Shown here piece after piece: positions 4,632-62,501 of a stretch of 64,000 nt of DNA. The stretch is taken from NCBI GenBank assembly GCA_947500445.1, contig CANMSB010000005.1:62001-126000 (forward strand). Reading direction: 5' to 3'. Origin of the DNA: an uncultured Flavobacteriaceae bacterium (GTDB lineage: Bacteria > Bacteroidota > Bacteroidia > Flavobacteriales > Flavobacteriaceae). The notes below the pieces were generated by a model. That model searched no databases. It saw only the letters and a program-made list of their open reading frames with translations, and had not been told where the DNA came from. The first letter of the stretch is position 1. Each line of letters begins with the position of its first letter. A program made the position numbers and the translations under genes.

Positions 4632-4814
4632 GAAGTGATTTAAACTTTTTGGATTGAAGCGATCCCGAGGCTTCGGGACATGATTTTTTGCTCTTTTGAA
4701 GCCTTTTTTGCGTTGCATAGCAGGGCTACGGAATGAAAAAAAGTCGAAAAAAGTGTGAAAAAGCATCATTTTTTAGCCTCCCGACGGTTCGGGAGAAAAA
4801 GTTTAAACCACTTC
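4632..4814. mobile_element. Hairpin element C, 183 bp, next to the ftsX stop
   Basis: Terminal inverted repeats GAAGTGATTTAAACT (4632-4646) and AGTTTAAACCACTTC (4800-4814) are identical apart from one base. AGT flanks both ends (4629-4631 and 4815-4817), a 3-bp target duplication. The central palindrome GCATAGC-AGG-GCTACGG (4715-4731) falls exactly at the midpoint. REP-like CCCGA..TCGGG hairpins lie inside. It has the same termini as element A at 60864. It contains no credible gene; the open frame across 4539-4769 is most likely spurious. Confidence 0.85.
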
Positions 4815-5691
4815 AGTAATAAAGCTCGTCCGTACGAAGGTTTAAAAAACGCTGGGTGGCAAAAAAGGTGCTCATCCACGAAATAAGGATACCCAAAAGA
4901 AAGACCCCTCCGAAAAGTATTGCGATTTCGGTATAGTCCCCAAAAAGGCCCAGTTCCGGAAAAACAGTGTTCAAGTAGTACAGCAGTCCGCCGAGCGCTA
5001 GTATGGCAAGAACCGCTCCCAACATGCCCAAGCGAATATTGGTCCATATGAACGGCCGTCTTATGAACGCTTTTGTGGCGCCTACCATTTGCATGGTCTT
5101 TATAATGAAGCGTTTGGCATAGATGCTCAGCCGTATCGAACTGTTGATCAACAATACTGCGATAAAGGTGAATATACCACTGGCCACCAAAATCCAGAAA
5201 CCGATTTTTTTAACGTTGTCGTTCAATAGGCCAACCAAAGGTTTGTCGTAACTCACTTCTGCTACGTACGCCTTTGCGGTCATTTCGGACACCATTTCCT
5301 CAATACGCTCGGGGGTAACGAAATCGGCCATCAATTGCACGTCGATAGCGTTCTTTAAAGGGTTGTACCCCAAAAACGCCATAAAATTTTCACCGATTTC
5401 CTTGCTGTGCCGTTCCGCTGCCTCTTCCTTGGAAACATAGACCGCCGATTTCACATGTTCGGCCAACGCCAAGGTTTTTTGTAGTTGGTTGATTTCGATT
5501 TCCTTTGCAGACTCCTTTAGAAATAGTGAAATCGTAATCTGTTCCTTAAAATGGTCCGCCATTTTTTTGGTGTTCAACAGCAGCGTTCCCAAGGCCCCCA
5601 ATAAGAATAATACGAGGGCAATACTCAACACCACCGAAAAATAGGAGGATATCAGCTTTCTTTTTTGATAGTTTTCAAATGATTTGCCCAT
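4813..5691 (-). CDS. ftsX: Cell-division protein FtsX, ABC permease-like
   Basis: The membrane partner of FtsE; it activates septal peptidoglycan hydrolases. The 292 residues show one N-terminal membrane helix (about 20-42), a periplasmic domain (about 45-165), and three C-terminal helices (about 167-190, 222-243 and 258-282), the standard FtsX layout. No ftsE is adjacent, as is common in Bacteroidota. The TGA stop (4813-4815) is built from the last two bases of hairpin element C plus the flanking A. The element landed at the stop codon and regenerated it, leaving the protein unchanged. Confidence 0.92.
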   Translation of the reverse strand: MGKSFENYQKRKLISSYFSVVLSIALVLFLLGALGTLLLNTKKMADHFKEQITISLFLKESAKEIEINQLQKTLALAEHVKSAVYVSKEEAAERHSKEIGENFMAFLGYNPLKNAIDVQLMADFVTPERIEEMVSEMTAKAYVAEVSYDKPLVGLLNDNVKKIGFWILVASGIFTFIAVLLINSSIRLSIYAKRFIIKTMQMVGATKAFIRRPFIWTNIRLGMLGAVLAILALGGLLYYLNTVFPELGLFGDYTEIAILFGGVFLLGILISWMSTFFATQRFLNLRTDELYY

Positions 5692-6215
5692 GAATAGTTC
5701 AATACTGGTAGTGTGTTGTAAAAATAGGAAACATATCCAAATATGCTATTGATTTGCACTGGTCAATGGCCAATTAACGTTCTTTTGCCTTCATTAAGGA
5801 CCGAAACCTTCAAGAAGGGCAGTTTCCTTTTTCAATGATGGATGCCTTAGGAAAAAGTAGGGTAGAAAAAATGGGCATCTTGAAAAAGGCCATCCGTAAA
5901 TAGTTCAAATTGTATTTTTTTGCTCAAAATGGGAATACAAATATCAATACGTTCGGTCCCATATCCATCCGGACTTATGTTATTTAAAATATCTTGTTTT
6001 TTCAAAAAAATGGTTCGGCTAAACGTAGTAGAGGAGGTAAGGAAACTTTTCGTTTTCATCTGCCGACGTAGTTAAGGCTTATTGTGTTGCTTTTTCTGTT
6101 CCAAAGCTACCCCGAGGCATCGGGGCATAAGACTTAGCGACTTCATAAATATATACGGGCCTTTCGGTTTTGCCCTGAAGCCCGTATTACCTTTAGGCTG
6201 TGTTGCCCACAGTTT
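5692..6215. other. 524-bp gap with hairpins and no confident gene
   Basis: The only open frame is a 70-codon minus-strand stretch (5847-6059) with no recognisable domain, which I do not call as a gene. Two hairpins follow: CCCCGA/TCGGGG at 6110-6125, and a larger one with arms ACGGGC and GCCCGT at about 6155-6186. The second is just beyond the 3' end of the AT-rich Coa1-like gene and may serve as its terminator or as a recombination-type structure. Possible ftsX promoter elements were not resolved. Confidence 0.4.
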
Positions 6216-6653
6216 TTATTTCACATTTTCAATTACGACTATCGGTTTTTTGAGTTCGTTATTGATGATTGAAATATTGTTGTAAATCCACTTATCATTA
6301 TTCCAATCTGCAAAAACTCTCATTCTACCATTTCCCTTCGTTCCTGTGATGTGAACGTATATATCTATTGTGGTGCCATTGTTTGAATAATTAATAATCC
6401 CTCGCGCTATGTCCATTCCATTTACTGGTTCTAAACTACCTAACAATTCAACTACCTCTTGATTCTCTTGAGCTTTGAAAATGGCATTTTGCATAAGGTC
6501 TGGGTCTGCATAAGTTTTTGTTATATCAGAAATTCTAGTTCCAATTGGTGAAGATGCAATTGCAAAAACAAAGAATAAAAGTACGCCAAGTACAGGAGTC
6601 AACCATTTCCAATTCCGTTTCCACCAACTTTTATGTTGAATTAATTCGTCCAT
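6216..6653 (-). CDS. Coa1-family (cytochrome oxidase assembly factor 1-like) membrane protein
   Basis: This 145-residue protein has one membrane helix (about 17-34) after a Lys/Trp-rich cytoplasmic start, then a roughly 100-residue periplasmic domain with the pattern annotated in flavobacteria as Coa1 family (GSLEPVNGMDIARG...NYSNNGTTIDIYVHITGTKGNGRMRVFADW). In mitochondria Coa1 assists cytochrome oxidase assembly; in bacteria the role is unproven. The gene is visibly richer in A and T than its neighbours and is flanked by hairpin-rich non-coding DNA, which suggests it was acquired. Confidence 0.65.
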   Translation of the reverse strand: MDELIQHKSWWKRNWKWLTPVLGVLLFFVFAIASSPIGTRISDITKTYADPDLMQNAIFKAQENQEVVELLGSLEPVNGMDIARGIINYSNNGTTIDIYVHITGTKGNGRMRVFADWNNDKWIYNNISIINNELKKPIVVIENVK

Positions 6654-6766
6654 TTTTCAAAATTACAGATAAGAGTTGAGCTATGAACAGTAAGGGAGCA
6701 AAGTCGCGTTTGCTTTCCGCCACGCAAATGGCTAAATCTTTTTCTTTTAGATTTCCTTTACCTCGA

Positions 6767-8695
6767 TTATCTTTTCAAACTAAAATGCCCCTTGTAAACC
6801 GTATCGGCCACTCGAATCATATACCAATAATCGCTTTCGGGCAAAGGGCTGTTGTTAAAAGTGCCGTTCCATGAAATGGGCCCGTCAACAACGTGTTTCA
6901 ACAATTTTCCGGTACGGTCATAAATGGCAATTTCGGAATTTGGAAAAAAGGCGATACCCTCGGCTTCAAAAATATCGTTTCGGCCATCCCCATTAGGGGT
7001 GAAAAAGGTAGGGACAACAAAATGGACAAAGGAGGTTACCGCTTCCCCGCAGTCGTTGTCCTCCCTTACCCGAATATCATAGCGCCCTCCCGCAACGCCC
7101 TCAAAAATCGGGGATGTGCTATAGTCTATACCATCAATGGAATACTCGTAGCTGCCGTCGGTTTCCGTGAGGATTTCAATGGAATATCCCTCGGAACGGA
7201 TGTCCTTGATTACGGGCATCGGTATTTCCTCCAGTCGAATCGATTTGGAATTGGAACAGCCGCGGGCATCGGTGACCGTTACGGAATAGGTGTCCGGCCT
7301 ATCGACCGTAATGTCGCGAGTGGTTTCGCCCGTACTCCAGGCGTAGGAAAAAGCTTCCAGGCCCGCCGATAGGGTGGTAGTGGTATTTTCGCAAAATGCC
7401 AACACTTGGTCGGTAAGGACTGGAATTGGCAGTGCTTCAAAAGCGACCGCGGTTCGTAAGGCCGACCCGCAGCCTCCCAAAGAGGATACCGCCTCGGCGT
7501 AATAGGTGCCCGTACCGGGTGGTTGAAAAACGGTGCTTCCCTCGGCCAATAACAGGCCTCCCATGGCACTATCGTACCAATTCACGGTAATCCCTTCCGG
7601 CACGGATACCGATATAGTGCCATGGTCGTTTGCGCAGCTTGCGCCATCGCCATTACTTATAGGGGCCAAGGGTCGCGAAACAACATTGATCCGAAAAATT
7701 TCGGATGCGGAATTGCAACGGGAATTGGTTAGGTTTACCGCATCTTCGGCAACCAACACCCGATAAAAGGTATCATTAAAAATGGCCGGGGTGTCGTAGG
7801 TTTGGTTCGTTTCGCCTACGATGTCCGTCCAGTTGACCAAATCGGTACTTACCTGCCATTGATACGCATGGGTCGTGTAGATGGTAAAGTCGGGATTTGC
7901 GGTCAAGGTAGTGTTGAAAGGAACTTCATCATCACAAATTCCCCGGCCTGTTGCAAGCTCGGGATCGCTAATACCGATAAAATCACCACAGGACCGAAAA
8001 ACAATATCATCGATCGCAAGATCGTTCCCGCAGCCCCCATCACTATTGTTTTTCATTTTCAGGATGACGGATGTCTGTTCCGGGGCGGTCTTAAAAACAA
8101 GTCCAAAAGGTCGCCAAGTAGGGGACGAGGTATTTGGGATATTGCCCGTATCCCCAGAGGCCAATAGGGTAGTGTTGGTGCTGTCCCATATTTCAAACTT
8201 CACGTTTACCGGTATCCCGTTTCCCCCGCATCCCTGACTGGTTTGAAGGCTTATCAACCAGGAGGAAAACTCATAGGAGGTATTTTCACAAAGTCCGGTT
8301 ACGGTGCGTCTAAAAAATTCATCGGCTGTAAAACTGGCATTCACGATAAATGCTTTGCCGTTAAGGTCGTTTTCGGTATGATCCTCGGTGTCGTGCCAAT
8401 CAAAATAATTGGTGGTGCTGGATACGGTATAATCGCCATCATTAGGGGTTCCCGAGGTAAAGGTATAACTGGTGACCCCGGCACCTAAGGGCGGACCGTC
8501 GGTAACGCCTGTTCCAAAGGTTTCCGTGAATATCGCGTCGCCCGAATTGCCGGTACAAAACCCCAGCTGTGCATGAAGTTCGGAAACCCCAAAAAGCAAG
8601 AGCGTTAAAAGGAGGTATTTAAAATGTTTTTGGGACTTGTGCACCTTAATGGTATTAGGACGTGGAAGATAGCAATATCTTTTCCCCTTTCCCAT
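6767..8695 (-). CDS. Secreted adhesin-like protein with T9SS type B (CHU_C) sorting domain
   Basis: The product is 642 residues. A signal peptide ends at about residue 42 (LLLFGVSELHAQ). A lectin/jelly-roll-like region (about 60-235, matching 'expressed in disaggregation' style domains) follows, then Ig-like/PKD-type repeats. The C-terminal gliding-motility-associated tail is about 560-642 (FTPNGDGRNDIFEAEGI...AIYDRTGKLL), the type B signal for T9SS export. It is probably a surface adhesin or matrix protein. The first 17 residues are unusual before a signal peptide; a GTG at 8644 would give a shorter and more normal start. It is divergent from leuS, with only 42 bases between the starts. Confidence 0.85.
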   Translation of the reverse strand: MGKGKRYCYLPRPNTIKVHKSQKHFKYLLLTLLLFGVSELHAQLGFCTGNSGDAIFTETFGTGVTDGPPLGAGVTSYTFTSGTPNDGDYTVSSTTNYFDWHDTEDHTENDLNGKAFIVNASFTADEFFRRTVTGLCENTSYEFSSWLISLQTSQGCGGNGIPVNVKFEIWDSTNTTLLASGDTGNIPNTSSPTWRPFGLVFKTAPEQTSVILKMKNNSDGGCGNDLAIDDIVFRSCGDFIGISDPELATGRGICDDEVPFNTTLTANPDFTIYTTHAYQWQVSTDLVNWTDIVGETNQTYDTPAIFNDTFYRVLVAEDAVNLTNSRCNSASEIFRINVVSRPLAPISNGDGASCANDHGTISVSVPEGITVNWYDSAMGGLLLAEGSTVFQPPGTGTYYAEAVSSLGGCGSALRTAVAFEALPIPVLTDQVLAFCENTTTTLSAGLEAFSYAWSTGETTRDITVDRPDTYSVTVTDARGCSNSKSIRLEEIPMPVIKDIRSEGYSIEILTETDGSYEYSIDGIDYSTSPIFEGVAGGRYDIRVREDNDCGEAVTSFVHFVVPTFFTPNGDGRNDIFEAEGIAFFPNSEIAIYDRTGKLLKHVVDGPISWNGTFNNSPLPESDYWYMIRVADTVYKGHFSLKR

Positions 8696-8703
8696 ATTAG
8701 ACT

Positions 8704-8711
8704 TATTTTTG
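8704..8711 (+). promoter_or_regulatory. -7 box for leuS
   Basis: TATTTTTG fits TAnnTTTG and lies 26 bases before the leuS ATG. No clear TTTG stands 19 bases upstream, so this is a half-supported promoter. Confidence 0.45.
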
Positions 8712-8737
8712 CCCGATACCGAAAAGAAAACGATAAA

Positions 8738-11551
8738 ATGCAGTACGATTTTAATGCTATAGAAGCCAAATGGCAGCGATATTGGGCCGAAAACGAAACC
8801 TTCAAAGCTTCCGAAAGCAAGGAAAAGGAGAAGTTTTATGTGTTGGACATGTTTCCCTACCCTTCAGGGGCCGGACTTCATGTGGGTCATCCGCTCGGGT
8901 ATATTGCCAGTGATATTTATGCGCGTTATAAAAGGCACAAAGGATTTAATGTGCTGCACCCCCAAGGGTATGATTCTTTTGGGTTGCCCGCGGAGCAATA
9001 TGCCATTCAAACGGGTCAGCATCCTGCGCTAACCACTGCTACGAATATCAAGCGCTATCGGGAGCAGTTGGATAAAATCGGTTTTTCTTTTGATTGGAGC
9101 AGGGAAGTGCGTACTTCAGACCCAAGCTATTATAAATGGACACAATGGATCTTTATCCAATTGTTCCATTCGTGGTACGATATTGAAAATGATAAGGCGG
9201 CCCCGATCGAGACGCTGATCGCGCTATTCGAAAAAGATGGTAATGCCAAAGTAAGGGCAATAAACGACGAGGATACGGCGGTTTTTTCTGCGGCGCAGTG
9301 GGCCACTTTTTCCGACACCCAAAAACAAGCGGTATTGTTGAAATACCGGCTCACCTACCTAGCGGAAAGTGAAGTAAATTGGTGTCCCGAGCTAGGGACC
9401 GTGTTGGCGAACGACGAAATCGTCAATGGTGTTTCGGAACGTGGTGGGCATCCGGTAATCCGGAAAAAAATGACCCAATGGAGCATGCGTATTTCTGCTT
9501 ATGCCCAACGCTTGTTGGATGGGTTGAACGGGGTCGATTGGCCACAACCCTTAAAAGATTCGCAAACCAATTGGATCGGCAGGAGTGAAGGCGCTAGCGT
9601 AACATTTGAAGTCCCCTTGGGGGATAGGGGGATAGAAGTATTTACCACCCGCCCCGATACTATTTTTGGAGTAAGTTTTATGACCTTGGCCCCGGAGCAT
9701 GAACTGGTCTCAAAAATAACGACCCCTAAACAAAAAGCTGAGGTGGATGCCTATGTGGAACGTACCGCCAAACGATCGGAACGCGAACGTATGGCCGACG
9801 TGAAGACCATATCAGGGGCCTTTACCGGGGCGTATGCGTTACATCCATTTACGAAAGAACCGATTCCGATTTGGATCGGGGACTATGTGTTGGCGGGTTA
9901 TGGTACCGGCGCCGTGATGTCGGTCCCTTGTGGAGATCAACGTGATTACGATTTTGCAAAACATTTTAATATTCCTATCCCGAACATCTTCGAGGGTGTC
10001 GATATTTCCGAGGAAGCCTTTTCCGATAAGGAGAAGACGGTTATCGCCAATTCCGATTTTTTGAACGGACTCCCCTATAAAAAGGCGGTAAAGCGTGCCA
10101 TTTTTGAATTGGAGCAATTGGACCAGGGCCAAGGAAAGGTCAATTATCGTTTGCGGGATGCCGTATTCAGCCGCCAACGGTATTGGGGAGAGCCCTTTCC
10201 GGTGTATTATGTAGATGGTATGCCCCAAATGATCGCTGCCGAACAGTTGCCCATCACCTTGCCGGATGTGGAAAAGTATTTGCCGACGGAAACCGGGGAG
10301 CCACCTTTGGGGAACGCTACGCATTGGGCCTGGGATACCATAAAAAATGAAGTGGTCGCCAATACCGCTGTAGACCATAAAACGGTTTTTCCCTTGGAAT
10401 TGAATACCATGCCGGGCTGGGCGGGCAGTTCCCAGTATTTTAACCGCTATATGGATCCAAAAAACGAAAATGAGATCTTCTCGCAAGAAGCCATTGCCTA
10501 CTGGCAAGATGTAGACCTGTATATCGGAGGAAGCGAGCACGCCACCGGGCATTTGCTTTATGCCCGTTTTTGGCAAAAGTTCATGTTCGACAGGGGCTTG
10601 GTACCCAAGGACGAGTTCGCCAAAAAACTGATCAATCAAGGGATGATTACGGGGACAAGCGCTTTTGTCTATCGAGAAGGCGATACCGGTCGCATTCTCT
10701 CGAAAGGGCTAATAGCGGGAAAAAATGTTGTGCCCATACATGCAGATGTAGCCTTGGTGAACAGTTCTGACGAGTTGGATGTTGATGGTTTCAAGCAATG
10801 GTTGCCAGATTATACGGATGCAGAATTTGTTTTGGAGGACGGTAAATACATTGTAGGTCGGGAAGTCGAAAAAATGTCCAAGTCCAAATACAACGTGGTC
10901 AACCCCGATGAGATCTGCGAGCAATACGGGGCCGATAGCCTGCGCCTTTACGAAATGTTTTTGGGGCCTTTGGAGCAATCAAAGCCATGGAACACTGCTG
11001 GCATAACGGGAGTACACGGTTTTCTAAAGAAGCTCTGGAAGCTGTATTTTGATACGAACGGAAGCAAGGTCTCCAATGTGCAGCCTCGTCCCGAGAGTTT
11101 AAAAACCCTACATAAGACCATTAAAAAGGTTGAGGACGATATTGCCAATTTCAGTTTTAATACCTCGGTGTCCACCTTTATGATCTGTGTGAACGAGCTT
11201 ACGGCCCAAAAATGTACCAGTAGGGCCATTTTGGAGCCCTTGGCCATTTTGGTATCGCCATATGCCCCGCATATTGCCGAAGAATTGTGGGAGCAACTGG
11301 GAAATAAGGGTTCTATTGCCAAGGTCGCCTTTCCGGTTTTTGAACCCAAACATTTGGTAGAAAGCAGCAAGGAGTATCCGATTTCCTTCAACGGTAAAAT
11401 GCGTTTTAAAATGGAGCTTCCAGCGGATATGGACAAACAGGCGATCGAGGCGGCCGTTATGGCCCACGAAAAAACCCAAGAGCAGCTACAGGGCCGGACT
11501 CCCAAAAAAGTAATTGTGGTGCCCGGTAAAATTGTAAATATTGTTGGGTAG
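8738..11551 (+). CDS. leuS: Leucyl-tRNA synthetase
   Basis: Charges tRNA-Leu with leucine. Class I features are clear: the HIGH motif appears as HVGH at residues 48-51, and KMSKS as EKMSKSKYN at about residue 711. A large CP1 editing insertion is present (TTRPDTIFG, and GTGAVMSVPCGDQRDYDF for the editing pocket). The C-terminal anticodon-binding domain ends in the typical PGKIVNIV. At 937 residues it has full length. The ATG at 8738 fits the family N-terminus (MQYDFNAIEAKWQ); an open frame extends further upstream but is not conserved. Confidence 0.97.
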   Translation: MQYDFNAIEAKWQRYWAENETFKASESKEKEKFYVLDMFPYPSGAGLHVGHPLGYIASDIYARYKRHKGFNVLHPQGYDSFGLPAEQYAIQTGQHPALTTATNIKRYREQLDKIGFSFDWSREVRTSDPSYYKWTQWIFIQLFHSWYDIENDKAAPIETLIALFEKDGNAKVRAINDEDTAVFSAAQWATFSDTQKQAVLLKYRLTYLAESEVNWCPELGTVLANDEIVNGVSERGGHPVIRKKMTQWSMRISAYAQRLLDGLNGVDWPQPLKDSQTNWIGRSEGASVTFEVPLGDRGIEVFTTRPDTIFGVSFMTLAPEHELVSKITTPKQKAEVDAYVERTAKRSERERMADVKTISGAFTGAYALHPFTKEPIPIWIGDYVLAGYGTGAVMSVPCGDQRDYDFAKHFNIPIPNIFEGVDISEEAFSDKEKTVIANSDFLNGLPYKKAVKRAIFELEQLDQGQGKVNYRLRDAVFSRQRYWGEPFPVYYVDGMPQMIAAEQLPITLPDVEKYLPTETGEPPLGNATHWAWDTIKNEVVANTAVDHKTVFPLELNTMPGWAGSSQYFNRYMDPKNENEIFSQEAIAYWQDVDLYIGGSEHATGHLLYARFWQKFMFDRGLVPKDEFAKKLINQGMITGTSAFVYREGDTGRILSKGLIAGKNVVPIHADVALVNSSDELDVDGFKQWLPDYTDAEFVLEDGKYIVGREVEKMSKSKYNVVNPDEICEQYGADSLRLYEMFLGPLEQSKPWNTAGITGVHGFLKKLWKLYFDTNGSKVSNVQPRPESLKTLHKTIKKVEDDIANFSFNTSVSTFMICVNELTAQKCTSRAILEPLAILVSPYAPHIAEELWEQLGNKGSIAKVAFPVFEPKHLVESSKEYPISFNGKMRFKMELPADMDKQAIEAAVMAHEKTQEQLQGRTPKKVIVVPGKIVNIVG

Positions 11552-11577
11552 CCCGGGGCCAAGCGCAAAATAAACGG

Positions 11578-11832
11578 ATGGATAAAATCGAAGTTTTGGG
11601 TCTGGTCGCGGCCTGTTTGACCACTGCGGCCTTTGTACCACAGGTGTACAAGACCTGGAAGGTAAAATCGGCCAAGGAGATTTCGCTGACCATGTATACC
11701 GTATTTTTTATAGGGGTGCTCCTATGGTTCGTTTATGGGTTGCTTATCGATAGTTTGCCCGTGGTACTGGCCAATGGAATTACCGGTATGCTCATTGTTC
11801 TAATGCTCCTTATGAAGATGAGGTATAAATGA
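11578..11832 (+). CDS. SemiSWEET sugar transporter
   Basis: This 84-residue protein has three membrane helices forming one triple-helix bundle, half of a eukaryotic SWEET. The PQ-loop motif FVPQVYKTWK is at residues 19-28, with Pro21-Gln22. These proteins dimerise and move small sugars down their gradient; the substrate cannot be read from the sequence. It starts 26 bases after leuS and is probably co-transcribed with it. Confidence 0.9.
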   Translation: MDKIEVLGLVAACLTTAAFVPQVYKTWKVKSAKEISLTMYTVFFIGVLLWFVYGLLIDSLPVVLANGITGMLIVLMLLMKMRYK

Positions 11833-13416: not shown

Positions 13417-13437
13417 AAACGTACATTTTGTCAGTTA

Positions 13438-13758
13438 TACCATTTTTGCTTTAAAATCACCCAAATAAAAGCCACCATTTTTTGCTTAGACGAAAACGGA
13501 AAATTAATGCCATTTTAACTTTGAAATGGTACGTATAGAAATTGGATTATTTTTTCGGTATTCAAGGCGAAAAACCTAAGCATAGCAGTAGCTACGGTTA
13601 TTTTTTTTAACGAAGAATAACTGAAAAAGAAACTATTTATTAGTACTATTTCAAGGTTGAAAAGGTATACACATAGTGGTAGCTACGGCTGTTTTTTATG
13701 TTGAAGTATAAACGGAAAAGGGTAATTTTTAATAGGTAATTTTAAGGTAGAAATGGGA
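13438..13758. mobile_element. Hairpin element E, split by an inserted second element
   Basis: The outer ends match as inverted repeats: TACCATTTTTGCTTTAAAAT at 13438, and on the other strand from 13758 TCCCATTTCTACCTTAAAAT. Removing the inner copy (13508-13667) leaves about 160 bp, the normal size of the family. The right half keeps a palindrome core CATAG-TGGTA-GCTACGG. The flanks TTA and TTG differ by one base. A lone end of the same type occurs at 19066. The remainder of 13759-13885 before the peptidase gene shows nothing I can name. Confidence 0.75.
13508..13667 (-). mobile_element. Hairpin element, family 1, copy 3 (nested)
   Basis: This is a reverse-orientation copy of the 160-bp element seen at 35782 and 62341. 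Its ends are TGCCATTTTAACTTTGAAAT and, on the other strand, TACCTTTTCAACCTTGAAAT. The interior shares the TTAACGAAGAATAACTGAAA block in reverse, and the central palindrome is GCATAGC-AGTA-GCTACGG. TAA precedes it and TAC follows, a 3-bp duplication with one change. It sits inside element E, so it inserted later. Confidence 0.8.
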
Positions 13759-13885
13759 TTGCAAAGGCCCTGTCCCTTCCTGTTGACTAATTCGGGAAGA
13801 ATGGCGGGGTTTTTGTTTGCTATATTCAGTACTATCGGAACAGGAATCTTTAGTATCTTTAAGTATAATTTAAACACGAAACATT

Positions 13886-26021: not shown

Positions 26022-26203
26022 GAACTCGTTTTGAGTTGTTGTTTGTAACCGAGAACGAAGGCTTTTGTGACGTAATGAAGCCATTTTATGATTGCATAGC
26101 TCCCGAGGGTTCGGGACTACGGAAGCTGAAAATGGCAAAATTACGGTGCAAAATGCGACCCCGAATCTTCGGGGGTAGTAAAAGAATAACTTAAGACGAG
26201 TTC
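26022..26203. mobile_element. Hairpin element D, 182 bp, upstream of tyrS
   Basis: The ends are GAACTCGTTTTGAGTTGTTG and, on the other strand, GAACTCGTCTTAAGTTATTC. The middle holds GCATAGC and CTACGG around a CCCGAGGGTTCGGG hairpin (26094-26122). On the minus strand the inner sequence is clearly homologous to element A (60864-61035) although the ends differ. The flanks CCT and CTT differ by one base. It fills most of the gap between the epimerase gene and tyrS. Confidence 0.75.
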
Positions 26204-27583: not shown

Positions 27584-27700
27584 AGAACTTGTGACTTAGG
27601 AGGAGGCCTTTTTGATTTTCTATTTTGTTCAAAGTCGGTGCCGATCCGGAATAAGGACGAAAAGACCTAAGACTTATGATGGTGTCTGCTTGGTTTTTAC

Positions 27701-27796
27701 CTTTGAACTTGAACTTGAACTTGAGTTTGAACTTGAACTTGAGTTTGAGTTTGAGTTTGGGTTCGAGTTTGAACTTGTATTTGAGTTTGAGTTTGA
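27701..27796. repeat. Sixteen-unit hexamer tandem repeat
   Basis: Sixteen consecutive hexamers of the form (A/G)(C/T)TTGA cover exactly 96 bases, with few variants (GTTTGG, GTTCGA, ACTTGT). It lies between the converging tyrS and LuxE-like genes. Several frames stay open across it and give Lys/Phe/Leu- or Glu/Phe/Leu-repeat peptides, which are artefacts. Such tracts can change length by slippage. Confidence 0.85.
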
Positions 27797-27813
27797 AAAA
27801 CCCGTGCTGCACC

Positions 27814-30003: not shown

Positions 30004-30027
30004 TACCATTTCAAAGTTAAAATGGTA
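30004..30027. repeat. Minimal 24-bp palindromic element at a stop codon
   Basis: This has the same 24 bases as the element at 1308-1331. TTA flanks both sides (30001-30003 and 30028-30030). The right-hand TTA is the TAA stop codon of the lipoprotein gene read on the plus strand, so the insertion duplicated a stop codon. Confidence 0.75.
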
Positions 30028-35091: not shown

Positions 35092-35781
35092 ATGAAAAAA
35101 AGCGAAATAAAAATCCTCCTCGTCGACGACGAACCGGATATTTTAGAGATTGTCGGGTACAACCTTTCCTCGCAAGGTTACCAGGTGTTTACCGCCAAAA
35201 ATGGTTTGGAAGGCGTAGAGAAGGCGAAAAAGAAGGAACCGCATTTGATCATCCTTGATGTTATGATGCCCGAGATGGACGGTATTGAAGCCTGCGAGAT
35301 CATTCGGGGTACGCCCGGTCTGGAACAAACGATCATTACCTTTTTGACCGCCAGGGGAGAGGACTATTCCCAAGTGGCCGGTTTTGATGCCGGGGCCGAT
35401 GACTACATTACCAAACCTATCAAACCAAAGGTGTTGGTAAGTAAGGTAAAGGCACTACTTCGCCGTTTAAAAGAAAGGGAAGACGCTTCTTCGGAAGATA
35501 TTGTAAAAGTAGGCAACCTGGTGATCAACCGGGAAGAATATAAAATCGTGAACGATGGGGTAGAGATCATTTTGCCCAGAAAAGAGTTCGAACTCCTTTC
35601 CCTTTTGAGCTCAAAACCGAACAAGGTTTTTAAACGGGAAGTAATATTGGACCGTGTGTGGGGCAACGAAGTGGTCGTCGGCGGGCGTACCATTGATGTA
35701 CATATTCGAAAGCTTCGCGAAAAAATAGGGGAAGAACATTTTAAGACCGTCAAAGGTGTCGGCTACAAGTTCGTGCTCTAA
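35092..35781 (+). CDS. OmpR/PhoB-type response regulator
   Basis: This 229-residue protein has a receiver domain (about 6-120) with the acidic pair Asp12/Asp13, phosphoacceptor Asp56 (ILDVMMPEMDG) and the conserved Lys (ITKP). The C-terminal winged-helix DNA-binding domain (about 135-229) ends in the classic RTIDVHIRKLREKIG...KTVKGVGYKF. The partner kinase lies 247 bases downstream; a 160-bp hairpin element has landed exactly at the TAA stop between them. PhoB-like in layout; the signal is not known. Confidence 0.93.
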   Translation: MKKSEIKILLVDDEPDILEIVGYNLSSQGYQVFTAKNGLEGVEKAKKKEPHLIILDVMMPEMDGIEACEIIRGTPGLEQTIITFLTARGEDYSQVAGFDAGADDYITKPIKPKVLVSKVKALLRRLKEREDASSEDIVKVGNLVINREEYKIVNDGVEIILPRKEFELLSLLSSKPNKVFKREVILDRVWGNEVVVGGRTIDVHIRKLREKIGEEHFKTVKGVGYKFVL

Positions 35782-35941
35782 TACCATTTTAACTTTGAAA
35801 TAGCACTAATAAATCGTTTCTTTTTCAGCTGTTCTTCGTTAAAAAATATAACCGTAGCTAAGGCTATGCTTAGATTTTTTGCCTCGAACAACTAAAAAAT
35901 AATTCAATTTCTATACGCGCAATTTCAAAGCAAAAACGGTA
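35782..35941 (+). mobile_element. Hairpin element, family 1, copy 1
   Basis: The ends are TACCATTTTAACTTTGAAAT and, on the other strand, TACCGTTTTTGCTTTGAAAT. The core CCGTAGC-TAAG-GCTATGC (35852-35869) is at the midpoint. The arms between ends and core are themselves partly complementary, so the whole element can fold into one hairpin. TAA flanks both sides (35779-35781 is the stop codon of the response regulator; 35942-35944 follows). Apart from a few bases it is the same as the copy at 62341-62501. Confidence 0.9.
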
Positions 35942-51820: not shown

Positions 51821-51824
51821 AGCA

Positions 51825-54026: not shown

Positions 54027-54125
54027 TTTAACATTAATAGATGTTTTCCTACTTTTTTTGTTAAATATTATTTATTTTCAATAATTTTGACATGTTAGAA
54101 CGCTGTATTGCCAATACTTTAAGAC

Positions 54126-54554: not shown

Positions 54555-54690
54555 TAGCGGACCGCTACGGTTAAACTCAGAAGGATTTTTTTGAATTACG
54601 AAAAACGAATGCGCAGCAATAGCATTAAAAGCGCAGGGATTTCCCTTTTACATAAGCAAGCAGTTTTGCCTAGGGCGTACAGCGGGCCAT

Positions 54691-55344: not shown

Positions 55345-55443
55345 GTCCTTTATATCGTCGGTGTTCTAACATAAAAATAACAAATACCCTGCCATGAGCA
55401 CTTAAATAGCTGTTAAATTCGATAAACCGGGGGAAATAGGACC

Positions 55444-56520: not shown

Positions 56521-56521
56521 A

Positions 56522-57652
56522 TCAGATGGTCATTCGTTGGTCTCTTGCCACAACCTCCCATGTTCCGGTTTGTTCGTGGTCGGAGATGGTCCGTACTTCC
56601 TTATACTTGGCAGCGGTAGGGCAAATATGTATGGGTAGGGCATATAGGGCATCGCCTACGGCATACTCGTTTGCCTTTTGGGTTTTTACGATCAGGTGTT
56701 CCTCGCTATGGCCCACCTGTTCACTACCTTCCAGTCCCAGTAGTTTTACTCTCGGAAAACCCATTTCCGGGGCGACCCATTTATGGCCAAGATCAAAACA
56801 CAAAAGGTCTTTTCCGGGTTTGCTGATCACCCGAACGAGCAACACCGCGGCATGTAGGAAATGCATATCGGGAAAAAGGTCTCCATAACGTACGTCCCAA
56901 AGTAAGGTAGTACCGGGGCTCGATTCTACATGGGGGCGTTTGGAATGTATCGGGAAAGAGGGGGATCCCCCTGCCACGACATGGGGGACGGTAATGCCCT
57001 CGTTTTTAATGGTGTTGATCAAATCGGTAACCGATTCATACGCGGCATCGCAACGGGCCTTCCTTTCCGCTATGTCGCTGTCGCGTATATGACCGTCGTA
57101 TACATGGATTCCACTTGCCGTGACATGGGAATGTTCTTCCATGGCACGGTAGAGTGCTACCGCCGTTTCATCGGGTGGGCAACCGGTGCGGTCCATTCCA
57201 TTGTTGATGTCCATATACAGGGAAATCCGGGTATGTTCGTTTTCGGCGGATGTTGCTAAAACCTTGAAATGTGCGAGATTATCGACCAAGGTTGAAAAAT
57301 AGGTTTCCGGAAAGCGTTTCATCAAGCTGAAAAAACGATCGATATTGACCGCTACCGGCTGCATGGCCAGGAGTACGTCCTTAGCTCCGCAATTGCCTAA
57401 AAGTTCGGCTTCGGCCACGGTAGCACATTTAAATTTTTGAATGCCGTGGCGTTGTTGCATTTGAACGATTTCGGCCGTTTTGTGGGTTTTGATGTGCGGT
57501 CGCAATCGTGTAAATCCACCTGCCATTGAAATCATGGTGCGGATGTTCTCTTCAATGCGTTCGGGATAGACCAATAATGCTGGGGAAGGTATGGTTTCAA
57601 CATTATTTACGGTATACCATTCTTGTGCTGCCATATGCGTTTGTTTTATCAT
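56522..57652 (-). CDS. DSD1 / D-threonine-aldolase-family PLP enzyme, probably D-serine dehydratase-like
   Basis: 376 residues, fold type III PLP enzyme. The PLP lysine is Lys55 in RPHIKTHK; the N-terminal PSPALLV strand and the SPGTTLLWD phosphate region fit the family. The metal ligands are His342-x-Cys344 (PIHICPT). As I recall, eukaryotic D-serine dehydratase uses His/Cys for zinc, whereas D-threonine aldolase uses His/Asp, so D-serine or D-3-hydroxyaspartate dehydration is the better guess. Its start overlaps the RidA stop by 4 bases. Confidence 0.88.
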   Translation of the reverse strand: MIKQTHMAAQEWYTVNNVETIPSPALLVYPERIEENIRTMISMAGGFTRLRPHIKTHKTAEIVQMQQRHGIQKFKCATVAEAELLGNCGAKDVLLAMQPVAVNIDRFFSLMKRFPETYFSTLVDNLAHFKVLATSAENEHTRISLYMDINNGMDRTGCPPDETAVALYRAMEEHSHVTASGIHVYDGHIRDSDIAERKARCDAAYESVTDLINTIKNEGITVPHVVAGGSPSFPIHSKRPHVESSPGTTLLWDVRYGDLFPDMHFLHAAVLLVRVISKPGKDLLCFDLGHKWVAPEMGFPRVKLLGLEGSEQVGHSEEHLIVKTQKANEYAVGDALYALPIHICPTAAKYKEVRTISDHEQTGTWEVVARDQRMTI

Positions 57653-58116
57653 TTAGCTCGGAGTTCAAAAATGGCCTCTATCTCCACCGCTACCTGTCCG
57701 GGGAGCATCATTCCTACGGCACTTCTGGCGCCAACACCTTTATCACTGCCGAAAACATCGGCCATGAGTTCGCTAAATCCGTTGATTACCAAAGGCTGGT
57801 CGCTAAACTCGGGGGTACAATTGACCATTCCGAGGCTTTTGACCAAGCGCTCGATACGGTCGATATCACCAAAATGGGTTATGATGGTGGCCAACATCGT
57901 CAGTCCTACTTGGCGGGCCGCTTCCTTTCCCTGTTGCAGGTCAAGATTGTCGCCGACCCTACCGGTATATAGGGTGCCATCGTTTAACATGGGTCCCTGG
58001 CCCGAAACATATAGGAAATTGCCGACCGTTACCACCGGTTTGTACAGTCCGGCCGGAGGCGGCGCGGGAGGTAGGGATAGTCCCAGTTCCTTAATTCTTT
58101 TTGAAGGTGTTTCCAT
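57649..58116 (-). CDS. RidA-family enamine/imine deaminase
   Basis: 155 residues of the YjgF/YER057c/UK114 fold. The conserved Arg motif ARSAVGMMLPGQVAVEIEAIFE closes the protein. RidA hydrolyses the reactive 2-aminoacrylate released by serine/threonine dehydratases. It overlaps the DSD1-type gene (ATGA), which suits a role in clearing that enzyme's by-product. Longer than classical RidA (about 128 aa) by an N-terminal extension. Confidence 0.92.
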   Translation of the reverse strand: METPSKRIKELGLSLPPAPPPAGLYKPVVTVGNFLYVSGQGPMLNDGTLYTGRVGDNLDLQQGKEAARQVGLTMLATIITHFGDIDRIERLVKSLGMVNCTPEFSDQPLVINGFSELMADVFGSDKGVGARSAVGMMLPGQVAVEIEAIFELRAK

Positions 58117-58249
58117 ATCGTATGTTTAAGGGTCAAGGGTTTTCTTTTAAGGCTGGTAAGGCAAGATATAACGGTAATTTCAACTTTTAAAACCATTAGT
58201 TATACATGCGAACTTCCAATCGACATATAAGACCGTGGTTTTACCTTGT

Positions 58250-58651
58250 TTATAGTTCTTTCCATTTTTTAGCTATAAAATCGGGAACTGCTATGCCTTT
58301 TCTAAGAACAGTATCGATATGAAGGCCGACCAATTCCGATTCCGCGACAACGGATTTCGATTCCAAATTGCTCATTATGTGTTTAAATCGAACTATTTTT
58401 CCCTTAATTTCCTGTATTTCCGATTCAATGAACAGATTATCCCCAGCGATACATTCTTTGAGGTATTTTAGATTTTGTTCTAAAGCGACCAGTCCAGTAT
58501 TCGACTCTTTCATATAACTCGAGGTCAACCCTAAAAGTGAAAATAAATTCCAGGTAGCTTGGTCGAACTTCCCGACATAGAATTGAACGTTCATATGATT
58601 CATATGGTCGCAGTTCCAGGGATAAACGGTTCCTTGATAGGTTTTGATCAT
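58250..58651 (-). CDS. Hot-dog-fold acyl-CoA thioesterase
   Basis: 133 residues of the 4HBT/YbgC type, with the family's N-terminal motif WNCDHMNHMNVQFYVGKFD in which the catalytic Asp15 is followed by His-Met-Asn. It should hydrolyse small acyl-CoAs; the acyl group is unknown. It lies between the permease and RidA genes (90 and 133 bases away) and may or may not belong to the same operon. Confidence 0.82.
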   Translation of the reverse strand: MIKTYQGTVYPWNCDHMNHMNVQFYVGKFDQATWNLFSLLGLTSSYMKESNTGLVALEQNLKYLKECIAGDNLFIESEIQEIKGKIVRFKHIMSNLESKSVVAESELVGLHIDTVLRKGIAVPDFIAKKWKEL

Positions 58652-58741
58652 AAACTCTAAATTTAACTTGTGCGTTTCTAAATGACTTTCCTAAAATAGC
58701 CGAACCATCGGCAGGACCGTTCCGATGGACCAACTGATTTT

Positions 58742-60058
58742 TCAAATAAACATATCCAGCGCTAGAACGCCCAAAAGCCCCATAACACCCACCGTAGTTT
58801 CCATTACGGTCCATGTTTTCAGCGTGTCCTTTACCGAAAGATTAAAATATTCCTTGTACAACCAAAACCCTCCGTCGTTTACGTGGGACAGCATTAAGCT
58901 TCCCGAGCCGATGGCCAACACCATCAATTCGGGGCTTACATCGGTACTTGCCAGGAGGGGCGCGGCGATACCGGCAGCGGTAAGTCCTGCTACGGTAGCC
59001 GAACCGACACATACCCGTATGACCGTAGCAATGGACCAAGCGAGCAACAAGGGCGAAATGGTGACGCCTTTTAGCATTTCGCCGATATAGGTGCTTACGC
59101 CACTATCGATAAGTACTTCTTTTAGGGCACCCGCACCGGCGATGATCAGCAATACCATAGTGATGCCCGATACCGCGGTCGATACGGAACGCATGACCTC
59201 CTGCATTTTTTTTCCCCGCGCCAGCCCTAAAGTGTATATGGCCACCAATACGGAGCACAACATGGCGATTACCGGATTCCCGAGCACTTCGGTAAATTGT
59301 AACATTCCATTTCCTTCCGGAAGTACGACCTTGAAAATTGCTGCTATTCCGATCAGTATTACGGGTAACAGGGCAGTGAAAATACTGATAAACGTTCCCG
59401 GCATTTCTTCTTCGGTCAGTACTTTTGGGTTCAGGAATTCCTTTAAGGGCGAAGCCTTAATATTTTTTATGGTCCGCGAAAACAATGGCCCGGCAATAAC
59501 AATGGCCGGTATTGCCACAATGATTCCGTACAGCAAGGTCTTTCCAATATCGGCCTTGAACATCACCGCGATCCCGGTCGGGGCGGGGTGCGGGGGCAAA
59601 TAGCCATGGGTGACCGATAGGGAGGCCAACATGGGAAGGCCGACATATATTAGGGGAAGGCCGGTGGCAGCGGCAACGGTGAATACCAACGGGACCAGTA
59701 TAACGAAACCTACGGTGTAGAACATGGGTATGCCTACGATAAAGCCGGTGAGTACTACCGCCCATTGGATGTTCTTTTTACCAAAAGTTGCGACCAAACG
59801 TGTGGTGATCCGCTGGGCCGCCCCGCTATCGGCGACCAGTTTTCCCAGCATGGCCCCAAGGCCGAGAATCATAATAAGTCCGCCCAAGGTCTTACCCAGT
59901 CCGGTTTGAATGGAATCTACCACGGCAATAACGTCCATACCCTCCGCCACTCCTACAAAAAGGGACACCAGAACAAACGAAATAAAGGCGTTCAATTTAA
60001 ATTGGGCGATCAGGATAAAAAGAAGAACGATACCGATAATGACAATGGCTAAGGGCAT
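58742..60058 (-). CDS. GntP/DsdX-family permease
   Basis: 438 residues with about 12 membrane helices and the family motifs LGKTLGGLIMILGLGAMLG (about 53-71) and LPPHPAPTGIAV in mid-protein. The family takes up gluconate, other sugar acids, or D-serine (DsdX). Because PLP enzyme, RidA and M19 dipeptidase genes follow on the same strand, D-serine or a related hydroxy-D-amino acid is the likelier substrate. Confidence 0.88.
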   Translation of the reverse strand: MPLAIVIIGIVLLFILIAQFKLNAFISFVLVSLFVGVAEGMDVIAVVDSIQTGLGKTLGGLIMILGLGAMLGKLVADSGAAQRITTRLVATFGKKNIQWAVVLTGFIVGIPMFYTVGFVILVPLVFTVAAATGLPLIYVGLPMLASLSVTHGYLPPHPAPTGIAVMFKADIGKTLLYGIIVAIPAIVIAGPLFSRTIKNIKASPLKEFLNPKVLTEEEMPGTFISIFTALLPVILIGIAAIFKVVLPEGNGMLQFTEVLGNPVIAMLCSVLVAIYTLGLARGKKMQEVMRSVSTAVSGITMVLLIIAGAGALKEVLIDSGVSTYIGEMLKGVTISPLLLAWSIATVIRVCVGSATVAGLTAAGIAAPLLASTDVSPELMVLAIGSGSLMLSHVNDGGFWLYKEYFNLSVKDTLKTWTVMETTVGVMGLLGVLALDMFI

Positions 60059-60169
60059 GTAGAAGCTGTTTTGGAAGGTTTATGCCACTAAGATAGTGAA
60101 ATTGAAGTACGGGAAAATAACCCTTTTCCCGATATGAATTTTTTTGGACTTCCCGTTACTGTCCTGCTT

Positions 60170-60622
60170 TTAGGGACGTTTTTTTCGCTCGGAAATAGAC
60201 ATGACCATGCTTTTGGGAGCGGAAACCACCGCTATGTTTTTTGGCAAATCGGCGTCGGAAAGGGCTACGGCTCGAAGCAGCAATTTTTCGACCTCAGATT
60301 TTTGAAAGGTCTGAAAGTCCGTAACCTTTAAATGTCGGATATGTTTCCCCTTACCTTTTAACCCAAGCGTTGAGGACGGCAATTCGGTTCCCCGGTTAAA
60401 ACCAAAATTGACATGGTGCGCATACACCGCTATATGGCAGAACGCACCTTTCAGCTGTTCCGTTTTGGAGTATGCGATGGCCACTGCATTGTAGTTGTCC
60501 CATATGAGCTCATTGGCCTGGGGGACGGTGTCGGTAATAAAAGTTCTTAGCTGTAGGGCCAACTCCCGAATACGGGGATCGTAAGGTTTTAGAAATGTAT
60601 GGAGTTGCGCATTGGGTTTCAT
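60170..60622 (-). CDS. DUF1801-family protein
   Basis: 150 residues of the YdhG-like DUF1801 fold (ALQLRTFITDTVPQANELIWDNYNAVAIAYSKTEQ...). The C-terminal part is lysine-rich. Function unknown; relatives include frataxin-like iron-binding proposals. It is about 110 bases from the GntP gene and 27 bases from the remnant of the DUF2809 gene. Confidence 0.82.
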   Translation of the reverse strand: MKPNAQLHTFLKPYDPRIRELALQLRTFITDTVPQANELIWDNYNAVAIAYSKTEQLKGAFCHIAVYAHHVNFGFNRGTELPSSTLGLKGKGKHIRHLKVTDFQTFQKSEVEKLLLRAVALSDADLPKNIAVVSAPKSMVMSISERKKRP

Positions 60623-60863
60623 GTATTATGATTTTTAGTTGAAATGGTGTTACACATCTTTTCCTTTTTTCATCAAGTGTTTTTCGGTATTTCTTCGGGT
60701 ATGCATTACCCTTGAATTTACCCATACACTGCTTTCCAACAGCAGACCGATCGCTGCCCCGATACTGTAGCAAACAAGGTCGCTCCACAGAAAACCGCTT
60801 TCCAAAACGAGTTTCCCCATTCTGGTTTCCCGTATAGCTTGAATTTGTTCCCCTTGATACAAT

Positions 60864-61035
60864 GAAGTGATTTAAACTGTTTTTTTTACCTGCCCCCGAG
60901 GCGTCGGGGTCGCATTTTGCACCCTGACTTTGCCATTTTTGAATACCGGAGCTATGGCTATGTTACTAAAAAATGACTTCATCAGGTCGCAAAAGCCTTC
61001 ATTTTCGGTTCCAAACAAAAAGTTTAAACCACTTC
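60864..61035 (-). mobile_element. Hairpin element A, 172 bp, inside DUF2809
   Basis: Ends GAAGTGATTTAAACT and AGTTTAAACCACTTC, as in element C. AAT flanks both sides (60861-60863 and 61036-61038). The central core CCGGAGC-TATG-GCTATG is at 60946-60962, and a CCCCCGAGGCGTCGGGG hairpin is near the left. Because the coding sequence of DUF2809 resumes exactly after it, its limits and the 3-bp duplication are set by the gene itself. Confidence 0.92.
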
Positions 61036-61090
61036 AATTGACCGAATTCAATACTGAAACAGATGGCCAAGCTAATTACGGCCACTTTAA

Positions 61091-61259
61091 CCCGGTTTAA
61101 ACCTTAGAAAATCTACTACGGCTCAAAACTACTGCAAAACCGAACGTTTCACTATGTTTTTGAGTATGACCGTAGCCTGAGGCTATGCTCAAACTCAGAA
61201 AATACCCGGTCTTATTGCATTTTCGACCCTCATGACGAAGTTCTAATGCATAAACCGGG
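61091..61259 (-). mobile_element. Hairpin element B, 169 bp, inside DUF2809
   Basis: Ends CCCGGTTTAAACCTTAGAA (61091 on) and, on the other strand from 61259, CCCGGTTTATGCATTAGAA (15 of 19 equal). The core CCGTAGC-CTGAG-GCTATGC is at 61170-61188, near the midpoint. TTTAA stands on both sides. That join would shift the frame by one; an alternative reading with an 8-base repeat GGTTTAAA restores the frame. The exact duplication is therefore not settled. The termini differ from all other copies here. Confidence 0.8.
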
Positions 61260-61448
61260 TTTAAAGGTGTTGCCCGTATTGCGCAAAAACCGACTAGGAA
61301 GTACATCATTAGCGCATAAAGCACATCACCAATATAAGGATAAAGCAACGCTGGAACATAGGGCGTACGGGATAAAAGCCCGGCCCCAATGGTCAATACG
61401 ACCAAGAGGCCATAGTAGGGACGTTTCCGATGATAGCCGTCCAAAAGA

Positions 61449-62315
61449 TTAGAAGTGTTCGGCCTTTTTAGCATAGATACTAAACTTTCTGAAATATAGG
61501 ATGTTGGTGGTGTCTTTCCGTTCTGCGGCGATCCATTCGTCCATTTCTTCTTTGGTATATTGGCTTTTATGGCAGCGTAGCGATGTAAAGGCCTTTTCCT
61601 CGTCCTCGGCACGGAACCGAACGGCGGTGTTCATGTATTCCGCCCGTGTATATCCCAGGCCCCAATCTTCGGGAAATTTTTTGGTCTGTTCTTTTAGCCA
61701 ACCAAAATGGTACAAGTCTATTTCCGTCGCCCATCCTTCTCGGAGCAATATTTCTTTGGTCAGTAGCCCCACCATCCTATGATCGGGATGCCCGGTATCC
61801 CCATCGGGGCCAAAGGTGATAATGGTAGTAGGTCTAAGAAGCGCTATTTTCTCTTTGATCGCCGTTTTGAGTTGTGCCACCTCTTCGTAAAAATTATGAT
61901 GCCCATTAAGGCCAAGGCCGTCCTTTGCTCCCAAAAAATGGGGCGGACGTATCCCCAATGCCGCACAAGCGCATTCCGTTTCGGCCTTTCGTACCGCGAT
62001 CAGGGAATCTCCGGCCGGTATTCCGGCATGGTCGGTCACCCCATATCTGCCGTCGGTGGCCAAAACCAGATGAACGTTGCTACTGTCCGCATATTTTGCC
62101 AATAAGGGACTTACGATCGTTTCATCGTCCGGATGCGCAAAAATGGCCATAATGGTTTTTGGAGGGGCATTCTTGATTGTAGGCTTCAGTTCGTTCACAG
62201 GTGCGTTGCCTTGTTGGCAAGCACCAAAGAAGAGCAGTAACGCGCTAACAAGGGCCGATTGCCCTTTTCTTAAGGACGCCCATTTTTGCATTTGGGCGGT
62301 AGAGAGGATGCTCAT
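61449..62315 (-). CDS. PIG-L family deacetylase, lipoprotein
   Basis: 288 residues with a lipoprotein signal (LLLFFGAC, Cys33), then the LmbE/PIG-L fold. The zinc motif AHPDDE is at 60-65 and the second metal motif GHPDHRMVG lies about 130 residues further. Such enzymes remove N-acetyl groups from sugars or related compounds; this one would work in the periplasm. It is preceded by a family 1 hairpin element and overlapped at its 3' end by the broken DUF2809 gene. Confidence 0.9.
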   Translation of the reverse strand: MSILSTAQMQKWASLRKGQSALVSALLLFFGACQQGNAPVNELKPTIKNAPPKTIMAIFAHPDDETIVSPLLAKYADSSNVHLVLATDGRYGVTDHAGIPAGDSLIAVRKAETECACAALGIRPPHFLGAKDGLGLNGHHNFYEEVAQLKTAIKEKIALLRPTTIITFGPDGDTGHPDHRMVGLLTKEILLREGWATEIDLYHFGWLKEQTKKFPEDWGLGYTRAEYMNTAVRFRAEDEEKAFTSLRCHKSQYTKEEMDEWIAAERKDTTNILYFRKFSIYAKKAEHF

Positions 62316-62340
62316 GGGTTTACGGCGTTTTTTAAAGTAA

Positions 62341-62501
62341 TACCATTTTAACTTCGAAATAGCACTAATAAATCGTTTCTTTTTCAGCTGTTCTTCGTTA
62401 AAAAAATAGAACCGTAGCTAAGGCTATGCTTCCATTTTTTGCCTCGAACAACTAAAAAATAATTCAATTTCTATACGCGCGATTTCAAAGTTAAAATGGT
62501 A
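62341..62501 (+). mobile_element. Hairpin element, family 1, copy 2
   Basis: Ends TACCATTTTAACTTCGAAAT and, on the other strand, TACCATTTTAACTTTGAAAT. The core CCGTAGC-TAAG-GCTATGC is at 62412-62429, the midpoint. TAA flanks both sides (62338-62340 and 62502-62504). Nearly identical to the copy at 35782-35941, hence recently moved or under copy correction. It ends 5 bases before the PPK2 stop. Confidence 0.9.

Follow-up and report, generated by a model that had tools for sequence, protein, structure and literature searches.

Flavobacterial mini-transposons with several kinds of ends around a body that probably evolves as one folded strand

A superfamily of mini-elements of about 160 bp is described here from the genome of an uncultured Flavobacteriaceae bacterium (GenBank assembly GCA_947500445.1), starting from eight copies in a stretch of 64,000 nucleotides (contig CANMSB010000005.1, positions 62,001 to 126,000), referred to below as the window. 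The elements have different ends and a central palindrome in common, CCGTAGC-N3..5-GCTATGC (the core). The superfamily is real and mobile, and its distribution is wide but patchy. More than the core is common to its members, as the whole body can be aligned, varies little in length and has the properties of a single strand that folds. On balance, we favor the view that these are miniature inverted-repeat transposable elements (MITEs) moved by IS5-family transposases, with one strand of the body kept by selection as a folded rod while the ends were exchanged. The strand reading CCGTAGC is termed the top strand, and that reading GCATAGC...GCTACGG the bottom strand.

One body with several kinds of ends

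Exact cores were found five times in the window and in none of 100 shuffled versions of it. Across the genome (5,175,366 bases), a search with a loose spacer gave 51 forward and 49 reverse matches, against 2 and 2 in the reversed control, and a strict spacer gave 47 and 44 against none. The sequence-only reading, in which the elements were first noticed, depended on such a genome-wide recurrence, and 91 to 100 matches in 5.18 Mb against 0 to 4 in the control bear it out. Its claim that all the listed elements share the core holds exactly for five; at 60864 the core is a variant, CCGGAGC TATG GCTATGT (CCGGAGCTATGGCTATG), the two halves at 26022 are set apart by a CCCGAGGGTTCGGG hairpin, and the core at 13438 is degenerate. 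A one-base difference had also been ascribed to the cores of elements A and E, letters given without coordinates; the core at 4632 is exact. The hairpin resembling repetitive extragenic palindromic (REP) sequences that was said to fill the core spacer of one element was confirmed at 26022.

Allowing one mismatch, 143 core matches were collected from the DNA examined, of which 9 were dropped and 134 delimited as elements (103 from the window's own genome and 31 from elsewhere), with script-placed ends that were shifted or poor, in no known class, for 32 of the 134. The elements are short, carry terminal inverted repeats (TIRs) and contain no transposase gene, as is characteristic of MITEs. Seventy-one measured 159 to 161 bp, 69 of them with a left arm of 70 to 72 nt. 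Elements with ACCCG-type ends were 168 to 171 bp, with 80 nt left of the core, and those carrying a REP-like hairpin insert were 182 to 184 bp. The core loop was 4 nt in 84 elements, 3 nt in 48 and 5 nt in 2. At least five end types surround the common core, as expected of the modular nonautonomous superfamily proposed from the sequence alone.

With 38 diverse members as its basis, a covariance model identified at least 149 elements in the own genome at an E value of ≤0.01, among the 150 of 3,339 candidates that were scored. Searches using only the TIRs gave 307 matches for the TACC type (≤2 mismatches; none in the control) and 94 for the GAAGTG/GAACTC type (≤1 mismatch; 1 in the control). At two places in the window, 1308-1331 and 30004-30027, the TACC-type TIR was matched on both strands with a 4-nt offset. 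Thirteen such pairs occur within 0.59 Mb of own-genome sequence; these 24-bp palindromes could represent either a shorter element or ends that have decayed.

Exact cores were also counted in other genomes. They were present in 9 of 80 genomes comprising the own genome and its relatives (8 of 79 relatives), in 15 of 395 genomes of the order including the own, with at least 3 of the other 14 attributable to chance, and in 20 of 395 genomes of the phylum, again including the own. The family was found in other genera, in another family and in another order. Genome G583, from another order of the same class, has 47 cores and genuine 159-bp elements flanked by TAA/TTA duplications. Among 13 genomes outside the order with a single match, G537 has ACCCG-type sequence with duplications and G612 partial sequence of this type, and the other 11 matches are chance-like. 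On contig C1 of G127, a genome of another genus, 15 exact cores are split 2 to 13 between the strands. No match was found in plasmids with two elements as queries, nor in viral contigs with two flank-specific core patterns. Rfam 15 gave no match at the gathering threshold in the window, and across 10 element-bearing loci the sole match above that threshold was a tRNA; the match overlapping an element was to SpF25 (E value, 0.88; 28.7 bits against a gathering threshold of 48). No description of the family was found in the accessible portions of the literature on MITEs in Flavobacteria or Bacteroidetes, on IS5 and on RNA structure.

Pairing of the bottom strand

Mismatches between the two arms are strongly asymmetric with respect to strand. 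Across 44 representatives sharing <85% identity, top-strand A.C mismatches outnumbered G.T mismatches 228 to 57, and 63 to 2 within the terminal 20 nt, in counts that are not tree-aware; a top-strand A.C is a G.U wobble on the bottom strand. When elements were grouped by genome and end type, A.C exceeded G.T in 19 groups and the reverse was seen in none, although the groups are not fully independent. Among other bottom-strand mismatches, purine-purine pairs prevailed, with 403 against 111. The bottom strand folded more stably than the top in all of 38 representatives, by a mean of 15.3 kcal/mol with RNA parameters and 7.0 kcal/mol with DNA parameters. Elements from further genera gave an A.C to G.T ratio of 127:55, or 117:36 without the chance-like hits L167, L169 and L177. 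No asymmetry was found at the ends of 12 full-length insertion sequence (IS) copies (6 G.T, 3 A.C and 22 transversions).

The two arms also covary. Over 55 pairs, the arms contained 409 double-changed cells, against 185.4 after shuffling and no more than 208 with the partner slid, and the arms of different end types are unlike in sequence yet paired in register. In 27 representatives sharing <80% identity, helices lie 6 to 12, 18 to 31, 38 to 44 and 53 to 71 nt from the tip, with purine-rich internal loops at 15 to 17 (most commonly GAA facing GAA), 32 to 33 and 35 to 36. Changes within families point the same way, since at Watson-Crick consensus pairs in four families of the own genome, single changes kept bottom-strand pairing in 61 events and broke it in 32 (P = 0.003). 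The ratio of kept to broken was 11:2 for variants present in at least four copies and 36:20 for those in one copy.

These data bear on the proposal that the elements are ordinary MITEs whose near-palindromes arose by fold-back of one end and whose mismatches reflect drift. Long stem-loop transcripts are indeed general among bacterial MITEs, as stated in the available parts of two sources (PMC2229807 and PMC10969869). Drift, however, predicts equal numbers of A.C and G.T, contrary to the overall, terminal and group counts (19 to 0 with two ties), and such a by-product would not account for a length, tip and loop positions common to different ends and genera, or for the covariation of the arms. 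We regard this explanation as quite unlikely.

Further readings of the asymmetry or of the core were considered and set aside. A cruciform is disfavored because it exposes both strands, and a symmetric one should not favor the wobbles of either. Mutational skew in place of selection is countered by the finding that A>G and C>T changes both keep bottom-strand pairing, with no skew at unpaired sites. A replication-linked bias is unlikely because copies lie in both orientations (51:49). The variable spacer of 3 to 5 nt disfavors the core as a dimeric site in duplex DNA.

Several observations weigh against selection on a folded bottom strand. Two of the 21 genome-by-type groups were tied. For further pair types, the covariation was 100 against 95.4 and failed to beat 78 of 500 shuffles, in one of five measures, and the 55-pair structure was derived from the alignment used for counting. 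The arm alignment used to place the loops mildly favored A.C, a bonus that did not enter the mismatch counts (228:57 and the 19 groups). Variants present in two or three copies kept or broke pairing in a ratio of 14:10, and the better ratio of widely shared over private variants did not reach significance (P = 0.20) and is a hint only. The main family of G583 has no bottom-strand preference, the top strand being the more stable by 0.7 to 2.0 kcal/mol in all three distinct copies, compared with 10 in favor of the bottom strand in a second family of that genome. The lack of asymmetry in the G583 main family limits the claim. Taken together, the data suggest that one strand evolves as a rod folded from end to end, for which a single-stranded stage, either RNA or single-stranded DNA (ssDNA), would be the simplest reading.

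Transposition, the IS5 family and the elements of the window

The TIRs, 3-bp target-site duplications (TSDs) and one empty site show that the elements transpose. Perfect 3-bp repeats were TAA/TTA in 41 of 42 elements with TAC-type ends and in 5 of 5 with GAGACTG-type ends, TAA/TTA/TGA in 12 of 12 with ACCCG-type ends, and AAT/ACT/ATT (ANT) in 16 of 20 with GAAGTG/GAACTC-type ends. This division into TNA and ANT duplications by end type backs the suggestion that several transposases drive the family, with more than one specificity. A perfect repeat was found at 67 of the 103 own-genome elements, a fraction that is inflated because the end-finder favored such repeats; the TNA/ANT division is unaffected.

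The proposed comparison of filled and empty sites could be aligned in one case, which is between species rather than strains. The syntenic stretch of a congener (G002) is 319 bases long, against 693 in the own genome, and lacks the elements at 60864 and 61090. The alignment scored 229.6 when the elements and one repeat copy were removed and 60.2 when the elements were kept. The 60864 junction aligns well, fitting insertion with a 3-bp duplication there, and the 61090 junction aligns poorly.

A transposase with matching ends was identified for one class of ends. The own genome contains an IS5-type gene, truncated at its 5' end, that adjoins the end AAAAAGTTTAAATGAGTTC (85.5 bits to NF033580, below the cutoff of 110). 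With this transposase as the query, 31 loci, mostly in flavobacteria, were found among 84,980 named genomes. From the 26 loci scanned for ends, 9 IS copies were taken as full length, and 3 from G127, which has both the IS and the mini-elements, brought these to 12. They are 902 to 929 bp long, and nine have identical 3-bp flanks, of which seven are ANT. The left end is GAAGTG throughout and the right end is GAACTC (6 copies), GAAGTC (3), GAAGTG (2) or GAAATT (1), so that the two ends differ in their first 6 nt in 10 of the 12. Transposases from the two copies tested exceeded the NF033580 IS5 cutoff of 110 (117.2 and 119.7). The terminal 19 bp or so are the same as in mini-elements of types A, D and E, and the 3-bp duplications are alike. 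Judging by these ends, an IS5-family element with the same termini is the probable source of the GAAGTG/GAACTC mini-elements.

The IS copies and the mini-elements differ in other respects. With up to 2 mismatches allowed, no core was found in any of the 12 full-length IS copies, and the idea that the core is a structure recognized by the transposase is therefore unsupported. IS ends are mostly unlike each other. In contrast, the 26 mini-elements in which both ends could be assigned (one end was assigned in a further element) were GAAGT-type at both ends in 11 cases and GAACT-type at both in 15 (type H included), with no mixed pair; GAAGTG and GAACTC are paired in 6 of the 12 IS copies. The core-free IS copies and the like ends in 26 of 26 speak against an origin by internal deletion of the IS. 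The subterminal sequence of the mini-elements compared with the left and right IS ends gave 14 of 21, which does not tell the origin of the arms apart.

For the TAC, ACCCG and GAGACTG ends, the search for a matching transposase was negative, and this counts against mobilization of the whole family by the IS5 group. No TACC-ended autonomous element was found with long TIR pairs in about 0.59 Mb of the own genome, and no transposase for the three end types was found via PF01609 (4 genomes), PF13586 or PF13359 (8 genomes each) with inspection of ends. In G583, a TIR search gave no autonomous element, and no transposase family was searched there. A Protein Data Bank sequence search with one transposase gave no match. 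An inverted repeat, GGGCTACGG...CCGTAGCCC, lies just 5' of the IS5 transposase start in L137 (also in L135 and L136) and resembles half of the mini-element core. Derivation of the core from this leader was rejected, as the motif varies among IS copies and the other constant half is missing, and is kept as a lead. At L114 (G000:C16), an apparent IS200-like transposase start meets opposite-strand DDE transposase-like frames, as if one IS lay within another (no search was made).

The elements of the window are listed in Table 1. Most had been described as flanked by 3-bp repeats, which is correct for five of the eight (4632, 35782, 60864, 61090 and 62341) and not for those at 26022, 13508 and 13438. 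Two corrections apply to their delimitation. The elements at 13438 and 13508, first taken as separate, are nested, the TRCCATTTTAAC-type element lying within the TACCATTTYTRC-type one; the element placed at 61091 with CCCGG ends is real but starts one base earlier.

Table 1. Mini-elements and exact cores in the window (CM, covariance-model hit)
Feature	Position	Strand	Length	Remarks
Type A element, GAAGTG ends	4632..4814	-	183 bp	REP-like hairpin inserts; TSD AGT; CM C5:66632-66814
Exact core	4715-4731	-		CCGTAGC CCT GCTATGC; inside 4632 element
Type B element, TACCATTTYTRC ends	13438..13758	-		Interrupted beside degenerate core by 13508 element; weak CM match C5:75598-75759, E value 0.0018
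Type C element, TRCCATTTTAAC ends	13508..13667	-		Nested in type B; no exact TSD; CM C5:75512-75668
Exact core	13580-13597	-		Inside 13508 element
Type H element, GAACTCGTYTTRAGTT ends	26022..26203	-		REP-like hairpin between core halves; no 3-bp TSD; CM C5:88022-88203
Type C element	35782..35941	+	160 bp	TSD TAA; CM C5:97781-97937
Exact core	35852-35869	+		Inside 35782 element
Type A element	60864..61035	+	172 bp	TSD AAT; core CCGGAGCTATGGCTATG; CM C5:122864-123035; site empty in G002
Type F element, ACCCGG ends	61090..61260	+	171 bp	TSD TTA; not in G002 interval, junction aligns poorly
Exact core	61170-61188	+		Inside 61090 element
Type C element	62341..62501	+	161 bp	TSD TAA; CM C5:124340-124497
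Exact core	62412-62429	+		Inside 62341 element

The nested insertion lies at an arm-core junction, with 3 nt separating the end of the 13508 element from the degenerate core of the 13438 element, which is of a related type. REP-like hairpins (CCCGAGGC..TTCGGG and CCCGGTCAAGCCGGG) are present within many elements and add about 12 or 23 bp (4632-4814 and 26022-26203; also L002, L017 and L020). As side hairpins, they would not alter the length of the rod. Elsewhere in the window, an intergenic region at 27690-27809 contains degenerate tandem repeats (6/12 bp) such as TTTGAACTTGAG, with similar sequence in L104 at about 760 to 1350.

Known relatives and possible role of the folded strand

Elements of the IS200/IS605 type, which move as single strands, have neither TIRs nor TSDs, and the mini-elements differ from them in having both. 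The mini-elements resemble the REP/REPIN sequences associated with RAYT transposases in being palindromic, intergenic and of high copy number, and some of them even contain an inserted REP-like hairpin. REPs are palindromes of 20 to 40 bp (PMC3733652, in the portion available) without TIRs or TSDs, whereas the elements described here are about 160 bp and have TIRs and 3-bp TSDs. A further likeness is to the Correia/NEMIS, ERIC, RUP and YPAL/RU-2 MITEs, which in the accessible text of PMC2229807 are 100 to 200 bp long, mostly have TIRs and are predicted to give long stem-loop RNAs; ERIC is stated there to affect mRNA in an orientation-dependent manner. In that text, each such family has its own TIR and belongs to other bacterial groups, whereas the present elements combine at least five end types and two TSD classes with a single body, whose tip is invariant and which has been under apparent single-strand selection across genera.

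In the mechanism that we favor, IS5-family DDE transposases would move the mini-elements through the terminal 19 bp or so. Full-length IS5 copies with the same ends show this for the GAAGTG/GAACTC class, and the TIRs together with the TSDs suggest it for the TNA classes. The mini-elements, unlike many MITEs, do not look like internal deletions of an IS. The bottom strand (5'-...GCATAGC-N3/4-GCTACGG...-3') would fold from end to end into a rod of about 70 bp, with a 19-bp terminal TIR helix, purine (G.A/A.A) loops at fixed distances from the tip, helices of 14 and 7 bp, and a tip made of an invariant-sequence stem and a variable loop of 3 to 5 nt. Covariation and strand-asymmetric mismatches, both statistical signals, indicate that selection may have kept this folded strand while the ends changed to suit different transposases. 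Recognition of the tip would fall not to the transposase but to another factor, either from the host or a common trans factor, because the tip is common to differently ended elements and absent from the IS copies examined.

The selected molecule would most likely be RNA from read-through transcription of the bottom strand; ssDNA is a close rival. In the latter case, the bottom strand would fold when exposed during transposition or replication and serve as a substrate or enhancer for the transposase or for a hairpin-binding host factor. This would suit the maintenance of pairing out to the last base pairs in what is a DNA transposon (63:2 in the first 20 nt), the near-random orientation of the elements to genes, the asymmetry that persists with DNA energies in 38 of 38 representatives, and the spacer of 3 to 5 nt, which is better explained as a hairpin loop than as part of a dimeric duplex-DNA site. 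The fixed G.A/A.A loops and frequent G.U pairs are instead the usual signature of structured RNA, though DNA tolerates them, and we know of no precedent for an IS5-family transposase using a single folded strand. We consider ssDNA possible but rather improbable.

Orientation relative to genes was close to random, with 27 elements codirectional and 25 antidirectional in the 60 bp that follow a stop codon. The corresponding figures were 47:31 within 150 bp and 49:29 in spacers between tandem genes (P = 0.03). Together, the three comparisons lend weak support to an RNA role at the insertion site and weigh against the reading preferred here. An orientation so close to random nevertheless suggests, without proving it, a function within the cycle of the element itself and not at individual genes. 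Domestication of a MITE as a regulatory RNA or terminator that serves the host would fit the location of elements between called open reading frames (ORFs), with 0 of 133 inside one (a weak test, as insertion would itself break the ORF), and the position of the 35782 element, which begins immediately 3' of the stop codon of ORF 35092-35781. It is hard to reconcile with the orientation, with a distribution that is patchy (8 of 79 relatives; 14 of 394 genomes of the order) and with copies that are clearly mobile, and we judge it very unlikely. Given the mobility, the patchiness and the almost random orientation of the copies, end-to-end folding would rather aid propagation or tolerance of the element than regulate each host gene. 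More tentatively, and with appreciable doubt, the element could be identified with the folded strand of about 160 nt itself, whether RNA or ssDNA, its host-read tip being needed for spread and its TIRs being borrowed from whichever IS5-type transposases are available.

Bacterial MITEs have mostly been regarded as passive remnants of IS elements. Strand-asymmetric mismatches provide a simple statistical handle on folded-strand selection in a DNA mini-transposon, down to its last base pairs, and with at least 149 copies in one genome the idea is open to testing. If correct, it would imply that IS5-type transposition, or the tolerance of MITEs, involves an unrecognized cofactor or an unrecognized step with RNA or ssDNA, and it would point to an element that exchanges its ends while retaining its body.

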